A stretch of DNA of 22,800 bases, taken from a virus. The notes beneath the pieces were generated by a model. The model was not told the DNA's origin. It saw only the letters and a program-made list of their open reading frames with translations, and did no database searches. The stretch covers positions 1 through 22,800 of the IMG/VR virus record IMGVR_UViG_3300007516_000169; one strand, written 5' to 3'. The position numbers were made by a program, and so were the translations under genes. Positions 1-22,800 of this stretch are shown in pieces (the stretch's first letter is position 1; each line of letters starts with the position of its first letter).

Positions 1-408
1 AAAAGTTCCGAAGATGAAGCAAAGAAACACCAGAGAAAAGAAAAGAACCGTGGTGAAGGGTTAGACCGTGCGTTGACCGGGTTGGGTGAGTCCTTCATGG
101 GCACCTATCATCGTAATGAGAATAGCCATACCGCAAATATTGTGCACCTCGCCAAGCATTTTGGACATGTCGCAGTACCTAAGTCGGCAGTGATCGTAGT
201 AGAGGAGGTGACATATAAAGTAGGCCAGAATTTTAGAATTGGGGACGATCTTGCTTTGTTAGTAAACACTAGCGCTAAGTTCTGTGTACTAATTATGTTT
301 AAAAATGGTCTCAGGTATACCAAGCCTATTAAGGTTGGCAATCCTAAAAGAATTACCCAGAAAGAACTCAGTAAAATGTCGGATACTCGCGCAGTCTTAG
401 TTAACTAA
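1..408 (+). CDS. Chimeric ORF, 5' partial: phage protein N-part joined to repeat-family C-part
   Basis: The frame is open from base 1, so the true start lies outside the window; a TTG at 73 and an ATG at 97 are only internal candidates. Codons up to about 165 encode a charged segment ending in LAKHFG. From 166 on, the protein is almost the same as the C-terminal two thirds of the tandem genes at 21809-22567 (HVAVPK..., VTYKVGQNF, IGDDLALL, GLRYTKPIKVGN, ending AVLVN), and the DNA is nearly identical too. The first part is unlike that family and appears to continue in the next gene after its own repeat-like start (HFG then TDADQ). I read this as the front half of a broken virion-type gene fused in frame to the back half of an inserted repeat unit. 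Function unknown. Confidence 0.6.
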   Translation, partial: KSSEDEAKKHQRKEKNRGEGLDRALTGLGESFMGTYHRNENSHTANIVHLAKHFGHVAVPKSAVIVVEEVTYKVGQNFRIGDDLALLVNTSAKFCVLIMFKNGLRYTKPIKVGNPKRITQKELSKMSDTRAVLVN

Positions 409-548
409 AACCGAAGATCGTTAGGGATTGGATGAACAAGGAGAATATGATGAAACAAGTACAGCTCGAAGCTAATGGTGTAGCATATAATGTCATTGCT
501 GAAACAGAGGACTACTACATTCTTGATGGCCACCCCACAAATTGGGGC
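166..548 (+). mobile_element. Inserted, circularly permuted unit of the tandem gene family
   Basis: This stretch begins in the middle of a repeat-family gene, runs through its stop at 406-408, then through an intergenic spacer identical to the one at 22568-22605, and then through the first ~35 codons of a second copy. Its length (~383 bp) is about one array period (392 bp between copies 2 and 3). Both junctions keep frame with the flanking sequence. The left half resembles copy 1 of the right-hand array most, the right half copy 3. Flanks read together give AKHFGTDADQAQAKFF, a plausible uninterrupted helix. The exact ends are uncertain by a few bases (shared GG at the junctions). An assembly chimera between repeats cannot be excluded from sequence alone. 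Confidence 0.6.
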
Positions 549-839
549 ACAGATGCCGATCAAGCACAAGCAAAGTTCTTCGCAGACGAACTCAACAAGA
601 AGAAGTTGACTGAAGAACTCCATGCTTATGATGTACACCACGCGGGTAAGCATATCGACACAATTTTCTACGGGTCACATGAGGAACCGGAGAGCGTCAA
701 GAAGTCCCTAGTAGATCACGATGGTTATCACCCAAACATCACGGTGAAGAAGCAACGCAACAAGAAGAAGAGTGTAGAAGAAGAAGTTCAACCAAGAGTA
801 ACTTTAGCCGCAGTCAGGCGACTATTGAGCGGGGATTGA
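450..839 (+). CDS. Chimeric ORF: repeat-family N-part joined to phage protein C-part
   Basis: I chose the ATG at 450 (MKQVQ) because AAGGAG at 438-443 sits 6 nt upstream, as in the right-hand family members; upstream in-frame ATGs at 432 and 447 are alternatives. The first ~32 residues (NGVAYNVIAETEDYYILD) are the family start. After the NWG triplet the sequence changes to a lysine/glutamate-rich, helical segment (TDADQAQAKFFADELNKKK, then YDVHHAGKHIDTIFYG) with a basic tail (KKQRNKKK). That second part looks like the rear half of the gene broken at 165. The stop at 837-839 is directly followed by the next ATG. Probably a structural or assembly-related protein before disruption; no enzyme motif seen. 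Confidence 0.6.
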   Translation: MKQVQLEANGVAYNVIAETEDYYILDGHPTNWGTDADQAQAKFFADELNKKKLTEELHAYDVHHAGKHIDTIFYGSHEEPESVKKSLVDHDGYHPNITVKKQRNKKKSVEEEVQPRVTLAAVRRLLSGD

Positions 840-840
840 C

Positions 841-5593: not shown

Positions 5594-6003
5594 TGTCGAG
5601 TATAAGGGGTGATGTCCTACCAGAATGTCAAGTCGCATTCACTGACCTACGATTAACTGTGGCACTCATTGAACACGATATAGTCCTGTCTGCAAAGGTT
5701 ATTGACAAACTCAGTGAGGCGGTAGAGAAAATTGAAGAGATGAATGCCAATTTGGTAAAGATCATTGCGGTCCATGATTTGAAGCACGAGAACACCACCG
5801 AAGATGTCAAAGAGTTGGAACGTCGAATTGATGATCATCGGTTGAGTTCGGTCACCACAACCACCACAGAGAATGATGCAAAAAAGACCCTTGAACAATT
5901 GAAGAAGTGGCAGTATATGATCTTCGGTGGCGCTATTGTTGTCGGATGGGTAATCTCGCATTTGAAATGGCCCGCACTCCTCAGTCTCTTCGGTATCAAC
6001 TAA
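5593..6003 (+). CDS. Coiled-coil protein with C-terminal membrane anchor
   Basis: 136 aa, starting in the holin stop codon (taATG). Residues ~20-115 are largely helical and heptad-like (VIDKLSEAVEKIEEMNANLV, then DVKELERRIDDH). Residues ~107-130 are hydrophobic (WQYMIFGGAIVVGWVISHL). The shape resembles XhlA-like or other holin-accessory proteins that sit peripherally on the membrane beside a holin. A Thr-rich hinge (SSVTTTTTEN) separates coil and anchor. Functional link to the holin is inferred from coupling and topology. Confidence 0.6.
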   Translation: MSSIRGDVLPECQVAFTDLRLTVALIEHDIVLSAKVIDKLSEAVEKIEEMNANLVKIIAVHDLKHENTTEDVKELERRIDDHRLSSVTTTTTENDAKKTLEQLKKWQYMIFGGAIVVGWVISHLKWPALLSLFGIN

Positions 6004-6009
6004 TTCTGC

Positions 6010-6038
6010 TTGCAATTCTCCCCCCGTTCGTGTATAAT
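6010..6038 (+). promoter_or_regulatory. Sigma70-type promoter for the primase operon
   Basis: TTGCAA (6010-6015), 17 nt, TATAAT (6033-6038). The expected transcription start (~6045) is only a couple of bases before the primase ATG at 6047, so the mRNA would have almost no leader. Confidence 0.75.
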
Positions 6039-6046
6039 CCTTTTCT

Positions 6047-7123
6047 ATGTTACATATTGACCTGAAGTATACCCATTTGATATCCTGCCATCTTGAACGA
6101 TTCACTAGGAAAGGTGATTATCTCTTCAATTTCAGGTGTCCTATCTGTGGTGACTCACAAACAAAAAAGACCAAGACACGAGGGTATATCTACCGCGATA
6201 AACAAAGGCTCGCATTCAAGTGTTGGAACGGATGCGCCCCGCTATGGCTTGGGGCACTCATTAAGCACCTCAGCGTTGATTTGTATAAAGAATATCTACT
6301 CGAAACCTTCGTGGACAACCACACACCACGAACGAAGAAGCTGATAGGCGAACCTGGATTCTTTGCTGGTAAAGCCACTGTGACCCAACAGATGCGTTTC
6401 GGTACCGTAGAGGCGGTTATCTACGAACATGCCGAAAAGGTGAGCGATCTTCCGGAGGAACATTTTTGTAGTCAGTATGTCAAGAGCCGACAGATACCGA
6501 AGCAGTTTTGGGGTAAGTTGTACTATGCTAAGAACTACAACAAATTCATCTCGGAAATCGCACCACACTATGACAAAAAGATCAAAGATGAGCCCAGACT
6601 CTGTATCATGGTCTATGATCAATTTGGAGCCGTTTGTGCCGTTTCTGGACGTGCTTTAGAGGACTCTGCCTTACGTTATGTGACCATTCGAACGACTACC
6701 GATGAGAGCAAACTGGTGTATGGACTTGAGCGGGTGGATCAGAACAAACCTGTACAAATAGTCGAAGGTCCCCTTGATAGTCTGTTCCTGGGAAACACGG
6801 TTGCCTCGTGTGATTCAAACCTCATACTGACAGCCGGTCGACTGTCGGCAACTCAGATTGTTTTGCTGTACGACAATGAACGTCGTAGCCCCGAAATTGT
6901 CCTACAGATGACACGAGCGATAAACCTAGGTCACAAAGTTGTGGTATGGCCTGAATGGTTGGTAGAGAAAGATATCAATGGCATGGTTTTATCGGGGCAT
7001 TCTCCCGAGAGCATACAAGAAATCATATATAGGAATACATTCACAGGACTAACCGCACTTGCAGAATTGACGCGCTGGAAGAAAACCCCCAACAATAGGA
7101 GAGTTATGTTATGGATGAAGTGA
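6047..7123 (+). CDS. DNA primase, T4 gp61-like
   Basis: 358 aa. The N-terminal zinc-binding domain shows FRCPICGDSQTKK (C31, C34) and FKCWNGC (C59, C63). The TOPRIM-type catalytic core is visible as VEGPLDSLFLGN (E240, D244) and LLYDNERR (D276, E278). This order and the text around GPxDSLFL are those of T4 gp61, which makes RNA primers with the replicative helicase. The start is set by alignment to the gp61 N-terminus (IDLKYTHL...ERF before the zinc motif) and lies just after the predicted transcription start, with no Shine-Dalgarno. The last 13 nt overlap the ThyX gene. Confidence 0.9.
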   Translation: MLHIDLKYTHLISCHLERFTRKGDYLFNFRCPICGDSQTKKTKTRGYIYRDKQRLAFKCWNGCAPLWLGALIKHLSVDLYKEYLLETFVDNHTPRTKKLIGEPGFFAGKATVTQQMRFGTVEAVIYEHAEKVSDLPEEHFCSQYVKSRQIPKQFWGKLYYAKNYNKFISEIAPHYDKKIKDEPRLCIMVYDQFGAVCAVSGRALEDSALRYVTIRTTTDESKLVYGLERVDQNKPVQIVEGPLDSLFLGNTVASCDSNLILTAGRLSATQIVLLYDNERRSPEIVLQMTRAINLGHKVVVWPEWLVEKDINGMVLSGHSPESIQEIIYRNTFTGLTALAELTRWKKTPNNRRVMLWMK

Positions 7124-7794
7124 AGGTTTTGGATTACGGTCATGTGCGTCTGGTGGATCATATGGGATCGGACTTGTCGATTGTTCGCTCAGCCCGAGTC
7201 AGCTACGACGCGGCGTGGCGCACAGGCGAGGATGCTGGAAAAGATGCCAAGCTGATTCAATACCTTATCAAGAATCGTCATTCCACCCCACTTGAGTCTG
7301 TCACATTCACATTCGATGTCAAGGCTCCCATCTTTGTGTTCAGGCAGTGGCATCGTCACCGCACCTGGGCATACAATGAAATGTCTGCACGTTACACAGA
7401 ACTTCCCGAAGAGTTTTATGTACCCGAGGCGGACCAGATCACCACTCAGTCCGCTAGCAACAAACAGATGCGTACTGATGAAGTGAATCCACATGCAGAG
7501 TCGATGCGGGACCTCATGCGTTCCACTAATACCATAGCATTCAAAGCCTATCATACCATGCTTGCAGAAGGTTGCCCTCGTGAACTCGCCCGCTCAGTAT
7601 TACCCGTAGCTACATACTCACAGATGTTTGCATCGGTAAACTTACACAACTTGTTTCATTTCCTAGGCCTGAGAATGCATTCCCATGCCCAGTATGAGAT
7701 TCGTGTATACGCTATTGCAATCTTAGAACTCGTTCGACCTGTCTGTCCTATTGCGGTCGCCGCATGGGAAGAAGTTCAATCAACAAAGAAATAG
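7111..7794 (+). CDS. thyX: Flavin-dependent thymidylate synthase ThyX
   Basis: 227 aa. The ThyX signature RHR-x7-S is present (R82-H83-R84 ... S92, in HRHRTWAYNEMSARY). ThyX methylates dUMP to dTMP using FAD, NADPH and methylene-tetrahydrofolate. ELARSVLPVATYSQM and the downstream HFLGLRMHSHAQYEIR are also typical of the family's nucleotide-binding C-terminal half. AGGAG at 7097-7101 lies 9 nt before the ATG, and the start is inside the primase gene. Length is normal for the family. Its last codons (VAAWEEVQSTKK) are copied in a duplication immediately downstream. It works with the neighbouring ribonucleotide reductase to supply DNA precursors. Confidence 0.95.
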   Translation: MDEVKVLDYGHVRLVDHMGSDLSIVRSARVSYDAAWRTGEDAGKDAKLIQYLIKNRHSTPLESVTFTFDVKAPIFVFRQWHRHRTWAYNEMSARYTELPEEFYVPEADQITTQSASNKQMRTDEVNPHAESMRDLMRSTNTIAFKAYHTMLAEGCPRELARSVLPVATYSQMFASVNLHNLFHFLGLRMHSHAQYEIRVYAIAILELVRPVCPIAVAAWEEVQSTKK

Positions 7795-8085
7795 GATACA
7801 AAACATGGACGCACCTAAAGGGTTCTCGTTGAAAATTTTCCGCGATAGATACGCTTTCACGGAAACAGAAACCTGGCAAGATGCCTGTCTCCGTGTCGCT
7901 CACCAGGTGGCGACGGTCGCCGCATTGGAAGAAGTTCAATCAACAAAGAAATAGGATACAAAACATGAACGTACCTTTTTACGAACCTAAAGGGTTCTCG
8001 TTGACAATTTTCCGCGATAGATACGCTTTCACGGAAACAGAAACCTGGCAAGATGCCTGTCTCCGTGTGGCTCACCAGGTGGCGA
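7754..8085 (+). repeat. 160-bp imperfect tandem duplication across thyX/nrdJ
   Basis: Unit 1 is 7754-7913 and unit 2 is 7914-8085. Each holds the last ~12 codons of thyX, the stop, the spacer with AGGA, and the first ~36-40 codons of nrdJ. The only indel is 12 nt extra just after the start codon in unit 2. The join between units is GGTGGCGA/CGGTCGCC, with short GC-rich microhomology. The second unit feeds the intact nrdJ. Confidence 0.95.
7805..7954 (+). pseudogene. 49-codon chimeric ORF made by the duplication
   Basis: Starts at a copy of the nrdJ ATG with the same upstream AGGA. It encodes a near copy of the NrdJ N-terminus (PKGFSLKIFRDRYAFTETE) and then switches at the duplication joint into a copy of the ThyX C-terminus (VAALEEVQSTKK). 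It keeps an open frame and a normal ribosome site, so a 49-aa peptide may be made. Two substitutions relative to the parent sequences suggest the copy has had time to drift. Most likely a by-product rather than a functional protein. Confidence 0.6.
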
Positions 8086-10341: not shown

Positions 10342-10748
10342 GATATAGCGCTGGGTATAAGTATCAGCTCGCCGAAAGCTGTACGGTTACAATGCCTGAT
10401 CTCCCCGTTCGGACCCGAGAAATTGATACAGATTATATATGGTTAGGAGACGCGAATCTGTTGATCATTAAGAAGGGGTACGCATGGGATGGACCTAGTG
10501 GGCCCACTATCGATACCAAAGACTTCATGCGCGGTAGCCTTGTGCATGATGCATTGTATCAATTGATCCGAGGGAATCATCTTGATAAGAATGAGTATCG
10601 AGTGTTAGCAGATAAAGAACTCTATAGAATTTGTCGCGAAGATGGTATGTCCTGGGTTCGCGCTAATGTTGTGTATTATACGCTACGAGTATTCGGAAAC
10701 CCCGCAGCACGACCAGAAGCCGACCACAAAGTTATCGACGCACCATGA
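10338..10748 (+). CDS. DUF1353 family protein
   Basis: 136 aa. The core GYAWDGPSGPTIDTKDFMRG followed by SLVHDALYQL is diagnostic for DUF1353, a family common in phages and prophages and often found near structural or lysis genes, with no settled function. The conserved H in VHDALYQ and the acidic residues around it look like a possible active or metal site. Four-base overlaps at both ends place it in the same translated chain as its neighbours. Confidence 0.8.
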   Translation: MRYSAGYKYQLAESCTVTMPDLPVRTREIDTDYIWLGDANLLIIKKGYAWDGPSGPTIDTKDFMRGSLVHDALYQLIRGNHLDKNEYRVLADKELYRICREDGMSWVRANVVYYTLRVFGNPAARPEADHKVIDAP

Positions 10749-11026
10749 TTATCTATAACCTACGGCGACCTATTGCGCGTGTGCAATATATACGTGTGGA
10801 TCGAGGAACACAATGGGGCAATCCCTTCGTTATACTGAATCAGTCAGATAAAGAACGGGAGCGAGTGTGTGAGTTGTTTGAGGAATATGCAATATGGAGA
10901 CTGACCGTGGACCCTGAGTGGTTACACCCGCTGCGAGGTTCGAACCTCGCCTGTTGGTGCACACCAAAACGCTGTCATGCGGAAGCATTATTGAGATTAG
11001 CCACCCAATTAGAGGAGATACTATGA
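10745..11026 (+). CDS. DUF4326 family protein
   Basis: 93 aa. The sequence YIRVDRGTQWGNPF near residue 15, then LACWCTPKRCHAEALLRL, are the two conserved blocks of DUF4326, a small domain frequent in phages. The three cysteines and the histidine (CWC...CH) may bind metal. Function is not established. It directly precedes the Tad2-like gene with an ATGA overlap. Confidence 0.8.
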   Translation: MIIYNLRRPIARVQYIRVDRGTQWGNPFVILNQSDKERERVCELFEEYAIWRLTVDPEWLHPLRGSNLACWCTPKRCHAEALLRLATQLEEIL

Positions 11027-11298
11027 CACCTTGCGAAAATTTCGGTTGGGCACTTGAACAACTCAAGATGGGGAAAAAGGTTGGTAGGACAGGTTGGAAT
11101 GGTAAGGGAATGTTTGTGTTCCTCGTACCAGGATCAACATTCACCGTGAATCGTGCCCCATTACTGGGCTTCTATCCAGAGGGGACAAAGATAAGGTACC
11201 ATGCACATGTGGACATGAGGACAGCCGATGGAGAGATTGTGCCGTGGCTGGTCAGTCAGACAGATTTATTGGCAGATGATTGGGAGATTGTACCATGA
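11023..11298 (+). CDS. DUF2829 / Tad2-like Thoeris anti-defence protein
   Basis: 91 aa from ATG 11023 (AGAGGAG at 11011-11017). The family blocks are clear: NFGWALEQLKMGKKVGRTGW, NGKGMFVFLVPGST, then HVDMRTADGEIVPWLVSQTD and ending LLADDWEIV. DUF2829 includes Tad2, which binds and sequesters the cyclic ADP-ribose signal made by Thoeris ThsB and so prevents NAD+-depleting ThsA activation. The family is wide and not every member is proven to be anti-Thoeris, so the activity is inferred. It may combine with the NAD-related genes at 16366-19088. Confidence 0.8.
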   Translation: MTPCENFGWALEQLKMGKKVGRTGWNGKGMFVFLVPGSTFTVNRAPLLGFYPEGTKIRYHAHVDMRTADGEIVPWLVSQTDLLADDWEIVP

Positions 11299-15732: not shown

Positions 15733-16161
15733 ATGAAAACTACGTATACACTTCTGGCATTGCTCGCTGCGCTCTTTATTTTCCTCATTGTCTCCAGCTC
15801 TCAGGGTGCTGAGAACTCTCAGGGTGCTGAGATGCTTCGATGCACCCAAGCTGATGGGACCACACTCTACACCAATAAGGACGTACAAGGCTGTGAAGCT
15901 GTCAGACTTCCTGAATTGTCTATAGTACCCTCAGTCTATGAGAAGGTTGAGGTGCTTGAGAATGCACCTGATATGACACCCTCTAACCAACCACAAAATT
16001 TATCTATCCATGCGCGGACCTGTTTACTCTATGGCGAATGGCTTGATGTTCAAGAGAAAACGCTCGGAGGATTCAATCACAACACCGTCTATGATACCCA
16101 GCGTAGAATGTTGCTCACACAAATTTTTGGTTCGGGATTTATGCCTGTAGGTTGCCAATGA
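15733..16161 (+). CDS. Exported DUF4124-like protein
   Basis: 142 aa with a Sec-type signal (MKTTYTLLALLAALFIFLIV, then small residues) and likely cleavage around residues 22-26. After it, LRCTQADGTTLYTNKDVQGC resembles the start of DUF4124 domains, small periplasmic beta modules. Four cysteines in the mature part suggest disulfides. SQGAEN/SQGAEM comes from an 18-bp in-frame duplication. AAGGTGA gives the ribosome site, and the stop overlaps the next ATG. A periplasmic role is likely; the partner is unknown. Confidence 0.6.
   Translation: MKTTYTLLALLAALFIFLIVSSSQGAENSQGAEMLRCTQADGTTLYTNKDVQGCEAVRLPELSIVPSVYEKVEVLENAPDMTPSNQPQNLSIHARTCLLYGEWLDVQEKTLGGFNHNTVYDTQRRMLLTQIFGSGFMPVGCQ
15798..15832 (+). 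repeat. 18-bp-period tandem duplication
   Basis: CTCTCAGGGTGCTGAGA occurs at 15798-15814 and again at 15816-15832, adding six residues in frame just after the signal peptide. Confidence 0.85.
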
Positions 16162-16310
16162 GACCCACCGATCTTGAAATCATTTCACTCATACAGTCGC
16201 TTGCGGCGCAATGCCGTGAGCACAATAACGCATACCACCACATTACCCCGCTAGAATTGATTGGTGCTGCCTACCAACTCATTGAAAAGATAGAACAAAA
16301 TCCTTCTTGA
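16158..16310 (+). CDS. 50-aa helical phage protein
   Basis: Starts in the previous stop (ATGA) and runs MRPTDLEIISLIQSLAAQCR to IEKIEQNPS. It is mostly helical with a cluster of His/Asn in the middle (EHNNAYHH). Short, but the overlapping start matches the phage's operon style. Its stop sits inside the -35 box of the next promoter. Confidence 0.5.
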   Translation: MRPTDLEIISLIQSLAAQCREHNNAYHHITPLELIGAAYQLIEKIEQNPS

Positions 16311-16335
16311 CATTCAAACTTCATTGTGTTATCCT
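16307..16335 (+). promoter_or_regulatory. Sigma70-type promoter for the NAD/PRPP operon
   Basis: TTGACA (16307-16312), 17 nt, TATCCT (16330-16335), with the same GTGTTATC context as the promoter at 11919. A CAGGAGA site (16354-16360) follows before ATG 16366. Confidence 0.65.
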
Positions 16336-16365
16336 TATACTATCGCAGTACAACAGGAGAACATT

Positions 16366-17160
16366 ATGATCCAATCGTCCATAAACCATAATACATTCAA
16401 TTTCCCCGTTGGGGAAATGCAGGTGACTGTTGATCCTGAATACATGGGACCAGTCGATATTGAATTCATTTTTGAGAAGAATGCGGATATCATTGAATTG
16501 CTGATGTTTTGTGATGCTGTCCAGAGGGCAGGATGCAAACTTGGCGAGTTGGTGATGCGCTACGTACCGTTCAGTCGCCAGGATCGCTGCAATAACAAAG
16601 GGGAAGCGTTTAGCCTCAAGGTATTTTGCGATCTGATCAATGGATTGAACTTTAGGGTGGTCTACATTTCTGATCCTCACTCTGATGTCACGCCAGCTTT
16701 GCTCAAGAATTGTGTGACGATCTCTCAATGCGACTTGCTTGCACAACTAATCAACCGGCATGTTCATGCACCCTTCTATCTTGTGGCCCCTGATGCTGGT
16801 GCACTCAAGAAAACCCACACGTTAGCCAAAGAACTGTATTCACCTATGTTTCTGGGTATCATTGAGACTTCGAAGCTGCGTAACACTCAGACTGGCGAGA
16901 TCACGGGCACCGTAGTTCATACCCCCATGCTTCCAACCTACACTGCCGTGGCTGGTGTGGTCACCACCTATGTGATGGTTGATGATATCATTGACGGTGG
17001 GCGCACATTTATTGAGTTGGCAAAGGAATTGAGGAAGAAGGGGGCACAACAAGTCTATCTGTTTGCCACACACGGGTTCTTTACAAAAGGAAAAGAAGTC
17101 TTTGATGGTTACATAGATCTTGTGCGAGTGGCGAATGATTATTCAGAGAGGTTCAAGTAA
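16366..17160 (+). CDS. Prs-like PRPP-synthetase family enzyme (possible ADPR-PP synthetase, Adps)
   Basis: 264 aa from ATG 16366 (CAGGAGA upstream). The ATP-side block is RYVPFSRQDR (~64-73), the catalytic-side block is SDPHSDVTPALL (~102-113), and the ribose-phosphate loop is VDDIIDGGRTF (205-215). Cellular PRPP synthetases are usually ~315 aa and make PRPP from ribose-5-phosphate and ATP. In the NARP1 phage pathway a protein annotated as Prs instead pyrophosphorylates ADP-ribose. The short length and the NAMPT-like gene 32 nt downstream fit that pair, but sequence alone does not distinguish the substrates. It is the first gene after its own promoter. Confidence 0.85.
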   Translation: MIQSSINHNTFNFPVGEMQVTVDPEYMGPVDIEFIFEKNADIIELLMFCDAVQRAGCKLGELVMRYVPFSRQDRCNNKGEAFSLKVFCDLINGLNFRVVYISDPHSDVTPALLKNCVTISQCDLLAQLINRHVHAPFYLVAPDAGALKKTHTLAKELYSPMFLGIIETSKLRNTQTGEITGTVVHTPMLPTYTAVAGVVTTYVMVDDIIDGGRTFIELAKELRKKGAQQVYLFATHGFFTKGKEVFDGYIDLVRVANDYSERFK

Positions 17161-17192
17161 CAGTCGAGCTAATCAACCAGAAGGAATTCATC

Positions 17193-19088
17193 ATGCAAAA
17201 ATCAGGCTCCATCATTCACGCAAGCGATTTCTATAAGACTGGACACCCGCCCCAATATCCAGAGGGCACGACCCAAGTCTATTCCAATTTCACTGCCAGA
17301 GGATCACGCCTCAAGGAAGTGAATAAGGTGGTTGTGTTTGGGTTGCAGTATTTTGTCCAAGAGTATCTGGTCAATCGCTTTCAGAATGAATTCTTCAAGG
17401 CTGATAAGGACGAGGTCTTGGCAAAATACAAAAGGCGCATGGATACCTCACTGGGTCCTGATGCGGTGCCCGTGGATCGTTGGGCTGCCTTACATGACCT
17501 GGGATATTTGCCGTTGTTGATCAAAGCGTTACCCGAAGGTTCGCGTGTGGATTTGCGTGTCCCGTTCATTACGATCAAGAATACCCATCCTGATTTCTTT
17601 TGGTTGACCAACTGGGTAGAATCCTTAATGAGTAATGTGATTTGGCACCCAATCACTGTGGCGACCATTGCCTATAGTTACTGGGAATTGTTGAATGCAG
17701 GAGCCGTCAAGTCCTCAGATCATGTTGATTTTGTGCAATGGCAGGGTCATGACTTTTCCTATCGTGGAATGGACGAGTCTGCGGCAATCTGTGGTGCCGC
17801 CCATCTCCTGAGTTTCACAGGGACGGATACGATCCCCGCTATCGATGTATGTGAGGATTACTATGGTGCGAATGCTGAGAAAGAGTTGATCGGGGGTTCA
17901 ATTCCTGCAACAGAGCATTCCGTCATGTGCATGGGTGGGGAAGCATCTGAGTTTGAAACCTTCCGTCGATTGATCGAAGATGTATACCCAAGTGGACCTG
18001 TCAGTATTGTGAGCGATACCTGGGACTATTGGAAGATTTTGACTGAGACGCTGCCAGCACTCAAGGATACGATTATGAATCGCAATGGAAAGGTGGTCAT
18101 TCGACCCGATTCAGGCGATCCAGTCAAGATCATTTGTGGTGACCGTGATGCAGATATCCTGTCACCTGAGTACCGCGGAACGATTCAAGTGCTGTGGGAC
18201 GTATTCGGTGGAACAATCAATTCCAAAGGCTACAAGGAATTAGATACCCATATTGGTGCGATCTATGGGGACTCCATCACCTATGAGCGAGCGAATCAGA
18301 TCACGGATCAATTGATGCAAGCAGGATTTGCGTCAACCAATATCGTGTTTGGTATTGGCTCATTCACCTATCAGTATGTGACCCGCGATACCTTTGGGAT
18401 GGCGATGAAGGCCACCAGCGGGGTGATTAAGGGCCAGCGTGTGACCATTTCCAAGAACCCCAAGACTGATGATGGGTTGAAGAAATCTGCCAAGGGGTTG
18501 CTCGTGGTTCAATCGACTGAGACAGGGTTTAAACTTTTTGAGAATGTGTCGGAAGAAGAGGAAGCTGCCGGCGGCGACCTAGCCATGATCTATGAGAATG
18601 GTCTGACAGGTCGAACTCAGTCATTGGCAGAGATACGTGCCCGTTTGAAACAGAGAACATATTGTGGTGTTCTGGAGCATCCTTATGGTGGTCTTCTGCA
18701 TGACGATGTGGTCATGGGTACTAGGACGGACAGAACACAGGATCACGGCGATCAGATTGATGCCCAGGAAACACAATCCACGATTAGCCAGTGGGCACAG
18801 GACACGTTTGGACCCTCCTCGTCCAATCTCCGCATTGCCATACGGGCGAATGAGGAAATGGCAGAATTACTCAAAGCGTTGATCGTCAAGGGTCTTGAGG
18901 ACAAAGCTGCCGAAGAAGTCGCTGATGTGTTTATCGTCCTCTACAGACTCGCCACTGAGTTGGGTCGCGACCTCCATGAGGATATCAACAAGAAAATGAA
19001 GATCAACCGAGCACGGACATGGACGCTGGACGGCTCAGGATGCGCCCAACATGTGAAGGAGACACAGAATGTTGTCCCTCAAAGTTGA
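17193..19088 (+). CDS. NAMPT-like phosphoribosyltransferase fused to a MazG-like domain
   Basis: 631 aa; GAAGGA precedes the ATG. Residues 1-~515 are NAMPT-like, with counterparts of the human active site: HDFSYRG (F188, R191), SFTGTDT (D212), IPATEHSVM (H242), VIRPDSGDP (R304, D306). Cellular NAMPT joins nicotinamide and PRPP into NMN; the NARP1 enzyme Namat joins nicotinamide and ADPR-PP into NAD+. Residues ~528-615 form a MazG-like all-helical domain (ANEEMAELL with E554/E555/E558, EEVADVF with E575/D578), which in other proteins hydrolyses (d)NTPs to monophosphates. Full-length NAMPT ends near 490-500, so this is a real fusion. The C-terminal tail changed when pyrE was inserted (repeat 19041-19071). 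Overlaps pyrE by 20 nt. Confidence 0.9.
   Translation: MQKSGSIIHASDFYKTGHPPQYPEGTTQVYSNFTARGSRLKEVNKVVVFGLQYFVQEYLVNRFQNEFFKADKDEVLAKYKRRMDTSLGPDAVPVDRWAALHDLGYLPLLIKALPEGSRVDLRVPFITIKNTHPDFFWLTNWVESLMSNVIWHPITVATIAYSYWELLNAGAVKSSDHVDFVQWQGHDFSYRGMDESAAICGAAHLLSFTGTDTIPAIDVCEDYYGANAEKELIGGSIPATEHSVMCMGGEASEFETFRRLIEDVYPSGPVSIVSDTWDYWKILTETLPALKDTIMNRNGKVVIRPDSGDPVKIICGDRDADILSPEYRGTIQVLWDVFGGTINSKGYKELDTHIGAIYGDSITYERANQITDQLMQAGFASTNIVFGIGSFTYQYVTRDTFGMAMKATSGVIKGQRVTISKNPKTDDGLKKSAKGLLVVQSTETGFKLFENVSEEEEAAGGDLAMIYENGLTGRTQSLAEIRARLKQRTYCGVLEHPYGGLLHDDVVMGTRTDRTQDHGDQIDAQETQSTISQWAQDTFGPSSSNLRIAIRANEEMAELLKALIVKGLEDKAAEEVADVFIVLYRLATELGRDLHEDINKKMKINRARTWTLDGSGCAQHVKETQNVVPQS
19041..19071 (+). 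repeat. 31-bp direct repeat, left copy (flanks pyrE)
   Basis: Identical to 19629-19659. It contains the end of the MazG domain frame, the ribosome site AAGGAG and the pyrE start ATG (19069-19071). Confidence 0.97.
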
Positions 19089-19644
19089 GTTAGCGAACGC
19101 CTTTTATGAGACTCAGTCGTTCAAGTGGGACACTGAGACAGGGTTCACCCTCGCGTCCGGATTGAAGAGCCCCTTCTACGTCGATTGCCGGTCTTTGATG
19201 GCCCACCCAGGATCACGCCGTCTTGTCGCGCACCTCGCGTTCGAATCGCTGCGACCGGTCGAACTCGACTGTCTTGGCGGGCTGGAAATCGGCGCGATTT
19301 CTATAGCGACCAGCATATCGGATTTTGCGTTTGTGGCCCAGCCGCCAAGAACATGGCGGACTTTCGTGGTGCGGAAGCAGGCGAAAGATCATGGACTCGG
19401 AAAACTTATTGAAGGATCGTTTCAACCAGAGGATCGAGCCGTGATCGTGGACGATGTGCTCACAAGCGGCGGCTCGCTTCTTAAAGCTGTCGCGGCTGCC
19501 AGGGGGGCAGGTTTGACTGTGACCCATGCCTTGGTGATCGTCGATCGGAGGGAGCAGGATGGGCGGCGCAAGGTTGAAGCTAAGGGACTCACCCTTATCA
19601 GCCTACTAACCATCGACGACTTGACGAGTGCGCCCAACATGTGA
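19069..19644 (+). CDS. pyrE: Orotate phosphoribosyltransferase
   Basis: 191 aa. The PRPP-binding loop is VIVDDVLTSGGS (125-136). LASGLKSPFYVDCRSL (28-43) and FVVRKQAKDHGLGK (99-112) are characteristic of OPRTase, which converts orotate and PRPP to OMP in pyrimidine synthesis. The gene is visibly GC-richer than its neighbours: 41 of 60 bases are G/C at 19201-19260, against 26 of 60 at 18301-18360. It is bounded by 31-bp direct repeats that carry its ribosome site and start. Both facts point to recent acquisition from a bacterium. It follows a Prs-like gene, so PRPP made there could feed it; use of another base cannot be ruled out. Confidence 0.85.
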   Translation: MLSLKVELANAFYETQSFKWDTETGFTLASGLKSPFYVDCRSLMAHPGSRRLVAHLAFESLRPVELDCLGGLEIGAISIATSISDFAFVAQPPRTWRTFVVRKQAKDHGLGKLIEGSFQPEDRAVIVDDVLTSGGSLLKAVAAARGAGLTVTHALVIVDRREQDGRRKVEAKGLTLISLLTIDDLTSAPNM

Positions 19645-19659
19645 AGGAGACACAGAATG
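19629..19659 (+). repeat. 31-bp direct repeat, right copy (flanks pyrE)
   Basis: Second perfect copy, 588 bp from the first. It supplies the last pyrE codons, the ribosome site and the ATG of the next small gene (19657). Confidence 0.97.
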
Positions 19660-21773: not shown

Positions 21774-21808
21774 TAGTGTGCAGGGATTGAATGAACAGGG
21801 AGAATGTG

Positions 21809-22171
21809 ATGAAACAAGTACAGTGCAGCACTTATGGTTGTGGGGGTTGTGGGGTACATGATGTTATCGCCGAAGCGGGGGACTACTACATTCTTGATAG
21901 TTGTCCTGTGGGTTGGAATCACGTGTGTCATGTCGCAGTACCCAAGACCGCAGTGACTGTGGTAAAGGAGGTGACATATAAAGTAGGCCAGAATTTTAAA
22001 ATTGGGGACGATCTTGCTTTGTTAGCACAACTTAGCGCTAAGTTGTGTGTACTAATTATGTTTAAAAATGGTCTCAGGTATACCAAGCCTATTAAGGTTG
22101 GTAATTGTAAAAAGATTACTCAAGATGAACTCAATAGAATGTCGGGTACTCTCGCAGTCTTAGTTAACTAA
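21809..22171 (+). CDS. Tandem family protein, copy 1 (Cys-rich variant)
   Basis: 120 aa from ATG 21809 (AGGGAG 6 nt upstream; ATG 21791 is the alternative). The first third differs most from the other copies, with several extra cysteines (QCSTYGCGGCGVHD; DSCPVGW; HVCHVAVPK), perhaps metal-binding. The shared core is VTYKVGQNFKIGDDLALL, GLRYTKPIKVGN, ITQDELNRMSGTLAVLVN. Probably a small beta-rich protein of unknown function, expressed from the strong promoter just upstream. Confidence 0.65.
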   Translation: MKQVQCSTYGCGGCGVHDVIAEAGDYYILDSCPVGWNHVCHVAVPKTAVTVVKEVTYKVGQNFKIGDDLALLAQLSAKLCVLIMFKNGLRYTKPIKVGNCKKITQDELNRMSGTLAVLVN

Positions 22172-22216
22172 TCCGTAAAGGCATGTAGGAGGTGAGTTAA
22201 ACAATGGAGGTATATG

Positions 22217-22567
22217 ATGAAACAAGTACAGTTTAGAGCTAATGGTGTAGCATATAATGTCATTGCTGAAACAGAGGACTACTACATTATTGATCGTCGT
22301 CCTGATGATTGGGCTCAGGTATGTCGAGTTGCAGTACCCAAGACCGCAGTGACTGTAGTAAAAGAGGTGACATACAAAACAGGCCAGAGGTTTAAAATTG
22401 GGAACGATCTTGCTATTTTAGCGCAAACTAGCCATTCCTTGTATGCATTAATTAGTCTAGGAGATGGTAATAGATATACCGAACCTATTAGTGTGGGTAA
22501 TTCTTATATAATTACCCAGGAAGAACTTAGCAGAATGTCGTATACTCTCGCAGTCTTAGTTAACTAA
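22217..22567 (+). CDS. Tandem family protein, copy 2
   Basis: 116 aa from ATG 22217 (GGAGG 6 nt upstream; ATG 22214 directly before it). It lacks the cysteine cluster of copy 1 (QFRANGVAYNVIAETEDYYI) but keeps the fold-defining segments VAVPKTAVTVVKEVTY, GQRFKIGNDLAILAQ and ELSRMSYTLAVLVN. Differences concentrate in DRRPDDWAQV and in the HSLYALISLGDGNRYTEP region, which may be exposed surface. No motif reveals a function. Confidence 0.65.
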   Translation: MKQVQFRANGVAYNVIAETEDYYIIDRRPDDWAQVCRVAVPKTAVTVVKEVTYKTGQRFKIGNDLAILAQTSHSLYALISLGDGNRYTEPISVGNSYIITQEELSRMSYTLAVLVN

Positions 22568-22608
22568 AACCGAAGATCGTTAGGGATTGGATGAACAAGG
22601 AGAATATG

Positions 22609-22800
22609 ATGAAACAAGTACAGTTTAGAGCTAATGGTGTAGCATATAATGTCATTGCCGAAACAGAGGACTACTACATTCTTGATCGTCGTCCTGATCG
22701 TCCTGATCATTGGGCCCAGGTATGTCGAGTTGCAGTATGCAAGACCGCAGTGACTGTGGTAGAGGAGGTGACATATGAAATAGGCCAGAGATTTAAAGTT
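22609..22800 (+). CDS. Tandem family protein, copy 3, 3' partial
   Basis: 64 codons from ATG 22609 (AAGGAG 6 nt upstream; ATGs at 22591 and 22606 are alternatives), open to the window edge. Identical at the start to copy 2 (MKQVQFRANGVAYNVIAE) but with RRPDRPDHWAQV from a 9-bp duplication, and AVCKTAV where others have AVPKTAV. Confidence 0.65.
   Translation, partial: MKQVQFRANGVAYNVIAETEDYYILDRRPDRPDHWAQVCRVAVCKTAVTVVEEVTYEIGQRFKV

Follow-up and report, generated by a model that had tools for sequence, protein, structure and literature searches.

The phage pathway NARP1 has reportedly been known since 2024 (Osterman et al. 2024) and is said to be common in phages, so a further gene pair of this kind is in itself unsurprising. 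Here we describe such a pair in the virus record IMGVR_UViG_3300007516_000169, a 22.8-kb fragment of an incomplete phage genome, which as a whole stretch is called the window below. The pair consists of an adps-like gene, for a predicted ADP-ribose (ADPR) pyrophosphate synthetase (Adps) of the Prs family, and a Nampt-like gene, for a predicted nicotinamide ADP-ribose transferase (Namat). While the pathway to which we assign it is a known one, the domain architecture of its second protein, in which Namat is joined to a domain of the MazG type, is new.

The closest described systems are the NARP1 modules of Bacillus phage SPbetaL1, Mycobacterium phage DyoEdafos and the Felix-O1-like phages (PMC12774641; PMC13232231), with which the window pair shares its gene order, the short spacing, the Namat signature and adenine clamp, the loop type of Adps and, as far as the 22.8-kb fragment reaches, the lack of an NMN (nicotinamide mononucleotide) adenylyltransferase (NMNAT). 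It differs from them in the MazG domain fused to Namat and in the pyrE-like gene that comes immediately after. Bacterial NARP1, known from Paenibacillus foliorum (PMC12774641) and seen here in many Bacteroidota chromosomes and on a Persicobacter plasmid, is alike in that its Namat is about 56-60% identical to that of the window, keeps the clamp (80/80 bacterial loci) and usually has an Adps adjacent, but it is chromosomal and has no MazG fusion. RyDEP-NARP1 of DyoEdafos (PMC13232231) likewise combines NARP1 with an extra activity in one phage operon; there, however, it comes from a separate cyclic ADP-ribose glycosidase gene inside the operon, whereas in the window MazG belongs to the same polypeptide and a Tad2-like gene lies about 5 kb away.

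The Adps and Namat pair

The pair with its domains and motifs, the promoter-like site, the pyrE-like gene with its repeats and the two genes about 5 kb upstream all lie on the + strand. The adps-like gene (16366..17160) encodes 264 aa from an ATG, and the namat-mazG open reading frame (ORF; 17193..19088), encoding a Nampt-like protein of 631 aa, starts 32 nt past its stop; by direct reading, plausible ribosome-binding sequences stand immediately 5' of both (aggagaacattATG; agaaggaattcatcATG). The Prs-like ORF matches phrog_619 at 1.5e-69 and TIGR01251 at 1e-32, and the Nampt-like ORF matches phrog_448 at 4.2e-191 and PF04095 at 4e-41, so that the evidence for the family of each is decisive and far above chance. 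A first-pass annotation, made from the letters of the window alone, had already picked out both ORFs at these positions, the 32-nt gap, and the length and VDDIIDGGRTF motif of the Prs-family protein, all of which were recovered here. It had also placed a promoter upstream. The motif is indeed there (TTGACA-N17-TATCCT with an extended TG at 16307..16335, spacer 17, 10/12 consensus positions), but the region holds 6 promoter-like sites against 5.7 +/- 2.5 in shuffles, and at this chance level the promoter is not established.

The Namat domain occupies residues 1-486 of the 631-aa protein (17193..18650). It is 52% identical to the verified Namats of SPbetaL1 and DyoEdafos, the latter of which made NAD+ in vitro (PMC13232231), and its top solved structures are 9w5x/9w5w (1.3e-159) and 9ke8 (2.6e-130), with human Nampt far behind at ~1e-64. 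In the crystal structure of SPbetaL1 Namat bound to NAD+, 20 residues contact the ligand, and an adenine selectivity clamp is formed by R40 in a loop and by F392 and Y396 in a helix whose signature is GSX-Phi-X-Phi-X-Phi-TRD (PMC12774641). An SPbetaL1 clamp mutant of the type R39A/F391G (window numbering) is reported to form NMN but no longer NAD+. We mapped these 20 residues onto 36 aligned proteins, and 19 are identical in the window Namat, including R39 (17307..17309), which corresponds to the adenine-stacking Arg40 of the SPbetaL1 clamp loop, and F391 and Y395, which correspond to F392 and Y396 and lie in the clamp-helix signature GSFTYQYVTRD (18357..18389). The sole change, Ala362 to Ser, is common to the DyoEdafos Namat. 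This signature is absent from canonical Nampt, which has a helix of the GGALLQ type and no clamp, and in the canonical Nampts of Cupriavidus, Shinella and T4-like phages the two clamp-helix positions are non-aromatic. The residues D212, H242, R304 and D306, whose retention the first-pass annotation had pointed out, are invariant among 16 aligned relatives. In a maximum-likelihood tree the window protein falls among 30 Namat-type rows, in the clade of the verified Namats of SPbetaL1 and DyoEdafos, and 6 canonical Nampt rows lie across a branch of 1.51 (support 100/100). Namat is under purifying selection, with a dN/dS of ~0.11-0.15.

The Adps-like protein is marked above all by its sugar-phosphate-binding loop, VDDIIDGGRTF (16978..17010), which is of the Adps type D-G-G-x-T-F, the canonical form being D-T-A/G-G-T-L/M. 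All 16 canonical Prs proteins compared have D-T-(A/G)-G-T, none of 43 Adps-type rows has that Thr, and most of 132 further Adps proteins have the same loop type as the window protein (D-G-G-R-T-F). This D-T-(A/G)-G-T loop of Prs holds the 5'-phosphate of ribose-5-phosphate, and a change in it would be expected if the sugar carried diphosphate-adenosine in place of the free phosphate. The window protein also has DPHS in place of the canonical DLHA and 264 aa instead of about 315; its AlphaFold model has the Prs fold (pLDDT 92.3). We searched 15 bacterial genomes with a Namat relative for Adps/Prs matches: 14 contained a strong match of ~280 aa and, separately, a weaker one as long as a usual Prs, and the remaining one a weaker match and a fragment. 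The 15 weaker matches and E. coli Prs form one group (branch 1.91, 100/100), and the window protein stands outside it, with the Adps proteins. A K-x-R-x-x-x-T-G loop, also considered as an Adps marker, was dropped because the solved Prs 4twb carries the same loop.

The two genes keep company in their relatives. Namat relatives were collected from ~107 viral contigs. Of the loci fetched with a 3.5-kb flank, 80 from viruses and 80 from bacteria, 72 and 60, respectively, have an Adps near Namat; most of the tested bacterial loci with no Adps in the flank have, by coordinates, a strong Adps match ~3-8 kb from Namat. The absence of an NMNAT from the window, as first annotated, held: the 22.8-kb record has no match to PF01467, and neither it nor 8 related records of 34-176 kb contain one above the Pfam cut-off, the two sub-threshold matches lying within frames of 709 and 809 aa. 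Among these 8 records is the genome ctKR88 (42.6 kb), which is recorded as complete. Product names in database records, such as nicotinate phosphoribosyltransferase, were not counted as evidence of substrate.

By every sequence test available, the assignment of the pair to the known NARP1 pathway is well supported, and we regard it as very probably a NARP1 counter-defence module. A NARP1-like reading had been proposed in the first-pass annotation, and the refuting outcomes named there, so far as sequence could probe them, did not arise. The clamp residues, the Adps loop type, the lack of an NMNAT above the cut-off in the window and 8 related records and the trees, in which both proteins group with verified Adps and Namat and outside canonical Prs and Nampt (100/100), all speak for it. 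In such a module, a host NADase (a TIR, SIR2 or SEFIR effector) would split NAD+ into ADP-ribose and nicotinamide. The product of 16366-17160 would then pyrophosphorylate ADPR at its free ribose, with ATP as the donor (the Adps reaction), and the Namat domain, holding the adenine by R39, F391 and Y395, would combine the resulting ADPR-PP with nicotinamide to give NAD+ and PPi. This route would need no NMN adenylyltransferase, and its last enzyme would act while covalently joined to a predicted NTP pyrophosphohydrolase of the MazG type.

Other uses of the pair and the pyrE-like gene

The alternative that survives best, and which we nevertheless consider improbable, is an ordinary supply of phosphoribosyl pyrophosphate (PRPP) and NMN, in which the Prs-like enzyme makes PRPP, the Nampt-like enzyme makes NMN and the host adenylylates it, with PRPP also feeding a pyrE-like enzyme in what would be an island of nucleotide metabolism. 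Several observations weigh on this side and against NARP1. The best of them is the predicted PRPP-using orotate phosphoribosyltransferase gene of the same operon (pyrE-like, 19069..19644, 191 aa; TIGR00336, 127.4 bits with a cut-off of 106.8), the first 20 nt of which overlap the end of namat-mazG. A phosphoribosyltransferase (PRTase) gene is also found ~3.3 kb upstream of Adps in the relative L013, the relative L037 has upstream of Adps an ORF that is PRTase-like by eye only, and the window itself encodes other proteins of nucleotide metabolism (ThyX, ribonucleotide reductase and 5'-nucleotidase). Namat retains an NMN-forming activity, making NMN from PRPP in vitro (PMC12774641). The window Adps is 37% identical to SPbetaL1 Adps, 28% to DyoEdafos Adps and 29% to E. 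coli Prs, so identity is uninformative and the assignment of its substrate rests on the loop residues and the partnership with Namat. Finally, NadV of the Haemophilus ducreyi plasmid pNAD1 (L072:3828-5315) belongs to the Namat clade, yet it increases NMN in E. coli and, together with a PRPP synthetase, has served to produce NMN (PMC6095924); since a working Nampt sits in the clade, membership of it alone is no proof of Namat function.

Against this supply of PRPP and NMN stand the adenine clamp, which is wholly kept in the window and whose only known use is ADPR-PP, and the Adps-type loops, which are unlike those of every canonical Prs compared. The case of H. ducreyi is instructive here: its NadV has lost all three clamp residues, which are replaced by E, Q and R (R40, F392 and Y396 in SPbetaL1), and no Adps is annotated on the 5.6-kb pNAD1. 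Function thus seems to follow the clamp, which is intact in the window Namat. As for the pyrE-like gene, it is bracketed by two exact copies of a 31-nt direct repeat, the left one (19041..19071) holding its ribosome-binding site and start and the right one (19629..19659) its stop and, for a 28-aa ORF, a ribosome-binding site with the ATG. Its GC content is 0.564, against 0.485 for the Namat core, and no such gene was detected next to Namat in those close relatives whose sequence continues beyond it. On these three grounds it looks like, and probably is, a later insertion outside the NARP1 core, a reading on which the upstream PRTase gene of L013 and the ORF of L037 that looks PRTase-like by eye cast some doubt.

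A NARP2-type two-step salvage, in which the Nampt-like enzyme would make NMN and a phage NMNAT encoded elsewhere would complete NAD+, is very unlikely. In its favour, the window covers only a 22.8-kb fragment, a cytidyltransferase is encoded close to the canonical phage Nampts of phiCbK and Kaldavass, and a chromosomal Acinetobacter relative has NadM in its operon. Against it, the canonical phage Nampts that we fetched lack the clamp and are without an annotated Prs-family gene up to 4 kb away, and the related records of 34-176 kb yielded no NMNAT above the cut-off.

Two of these relatives deserve a comment of their own. The pNAD1 NadV is possibly a natural reversion from Namat to Nampt. The Acinetobacter chromosomal operon prsA2-nadV-nadM (L069:3084-6301) encodes a NadV with the Namat clamp and a PrsA2 with the Adps loop, and this nicotinamide-salvage operon may include NARP1 chemistry.

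The MazG-type domain fused to Namat

The relatives of the window Namat end at about the start of a linker (18651..18761), beyond which the window protein continues into an all-alpha domain of the MazG type of NTP pyrophosphohydrolases (18762..19088, residues ~524-631, motif RANEEMAE...EEVAD). These last ~108 residues match PF12643 (MazG-like) at 5.6e-7 and are 43-62% identical to 14 phage MazG-like proteins. Both traits of the MazG family, an EExxE...ExxD metal site and a four-helix fold, are present, and across 15 homologues the residues of the metal-site motif RANEEMAE...EExAD show no or almost no variation. For alignment and modelling the domain was taken by itself; an alignment of the whole protein misplaced the stand-alone MazG rows. 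Its model has a pLDDT of 92.9, and the nearest structure is MazZ of cyanophage S-2L (7ody; Foldseek 34% identity, Z 10.2, rmsd 2.5 over 96 residues). Judged by its residues, this is a complete MazG domain with an intact metal site, and it is predicted to be an active pyrophosphohydrolase.

The fold and the metal-site motif are common to this domain, MazZ and the phage MazG-like dATP/dGTP pyrophosphohydrolases, but here the domain is fused to Namat, and there is no sign of a 2-aminoadenine genome in the window or the related records. The link to a Z-genome that MazZ as nearest structure might suggest is unsupported, since a search of 18 records, the window among them and the majority fragmentary, gave no match to PurZ (PF00709).

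Among the ~107 viral contigs and 80 bacterial loci no other Namat carries this fusion, and we found no mention of MazG together with NARP1 in the literature searched. Its restriction to a single viral population is what could be expected of an assembly or frameshift artefact that joined two separate genes, an explanation with hardly any weight because the separately assembled contig L004 also carries the fusion and matches the window over 7,977 nt with no gaps and 10 substitutions, the only one inside the namat-mazG gene being synonymous, and because the MazG domain is full length with its active site intact.

In L037 a MazG homologue is encoded by a separate gene ~620 nt downstream of Namat, which makes it plausible that the fusion took in a neighbouring gene and that the fused domain descended from a stand-alone neighbour; the domains are too short for a small MazG tree to confirm this descent. 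The domain is most likely an accessory nucleotide-clearing activity captured in this way, with the house-cleaning of (d)NTPs as the default guess for its role. A bolder proposal, to which we give little credence, starts from dITP being the signal of the Kongming defence (PMC12774641): Namat-MazG might be a two-headed counter-defence enzyme that rebuilds NAD+ and also destroys the alarm that switches on the NADase (dITP, for example) or another defence nucleotide. If true, repair and silencing would be united within one polypeptide.

Neighbouring genes and wider occurrence

About 5 kb upstream of the pair lie two further genes with a possible bearing on NAD+, a DUF4326 gene (10745..11026; PF14216, 3.2e-18) and a gene for a predicted Tad2 (Thoeris anti-defence 2; 11023..11298, 91 aa), whose start overlaps the DUF4326 stop. 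The Tad2-like protein matches PF11195 at 1.2e-26 over residues 6-90 of 91, and its gene is conserved in the relatives L005, L006, L008 and L030. Tad2 sequesters the Thoeris signal, whereas NARP1 replaces the NAD+ that has been lost (PMC11984713), and the DUF4326 family has been proposed to process phosphates of ADP-ribose or of its breakdown products (PMC9503650). That two NAD-centred counter-defences share one small window strengthens the counter-defence reading of the pair. In L008 a NADAR gene (5867-6355; PF08719, 4.8e-47) begins directly after Namat, and its product could supply ADP-ribose to Adps.

Other features of the window are of a different nature. Upstream of Adps, 15733-16161 encodes a small protein whose hydrophobic N-terminus resembles a signal and which is kept at this place in L006, L008, L009, L011, L012 and L037. 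Related small genes (~117-135 aa), with 300-nt repeats that are 78-80% alike, are found at both ends of the window (1-840 and 21791-22800), and the contig may have been broken within an array of paralogues. Between thyX and the ribonucleotide reductase gene there is an imperfect tandem duplication (7754-8085; copies of 63 and 105 nt, 95-97%), which places extra residues ahead of the probable start of the reductase.

Clamp-bearing Namat together with Adps is also frequent in Bacteroidota chromosomes (L157-L236), and bacterial NARP1 seems to be commoner than the literature cited here states.

Taken together, these results add to the range of NARP1 an uncultured phage lineage represented by several environmental contigs, and they provide a sequence test, D-G-G-x-T-F versus D-T-A/G-G-T, by which Adps and Prs can be told apart. 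The adps-namat pairs present in many Bacteroidota chromosomes raise the question of a cellular use of the pathway, and the fusion of Namat with MazG hints that in this phage lineage the repair of NAD+ may be coupled to the hydrolysis of another nucleotide.

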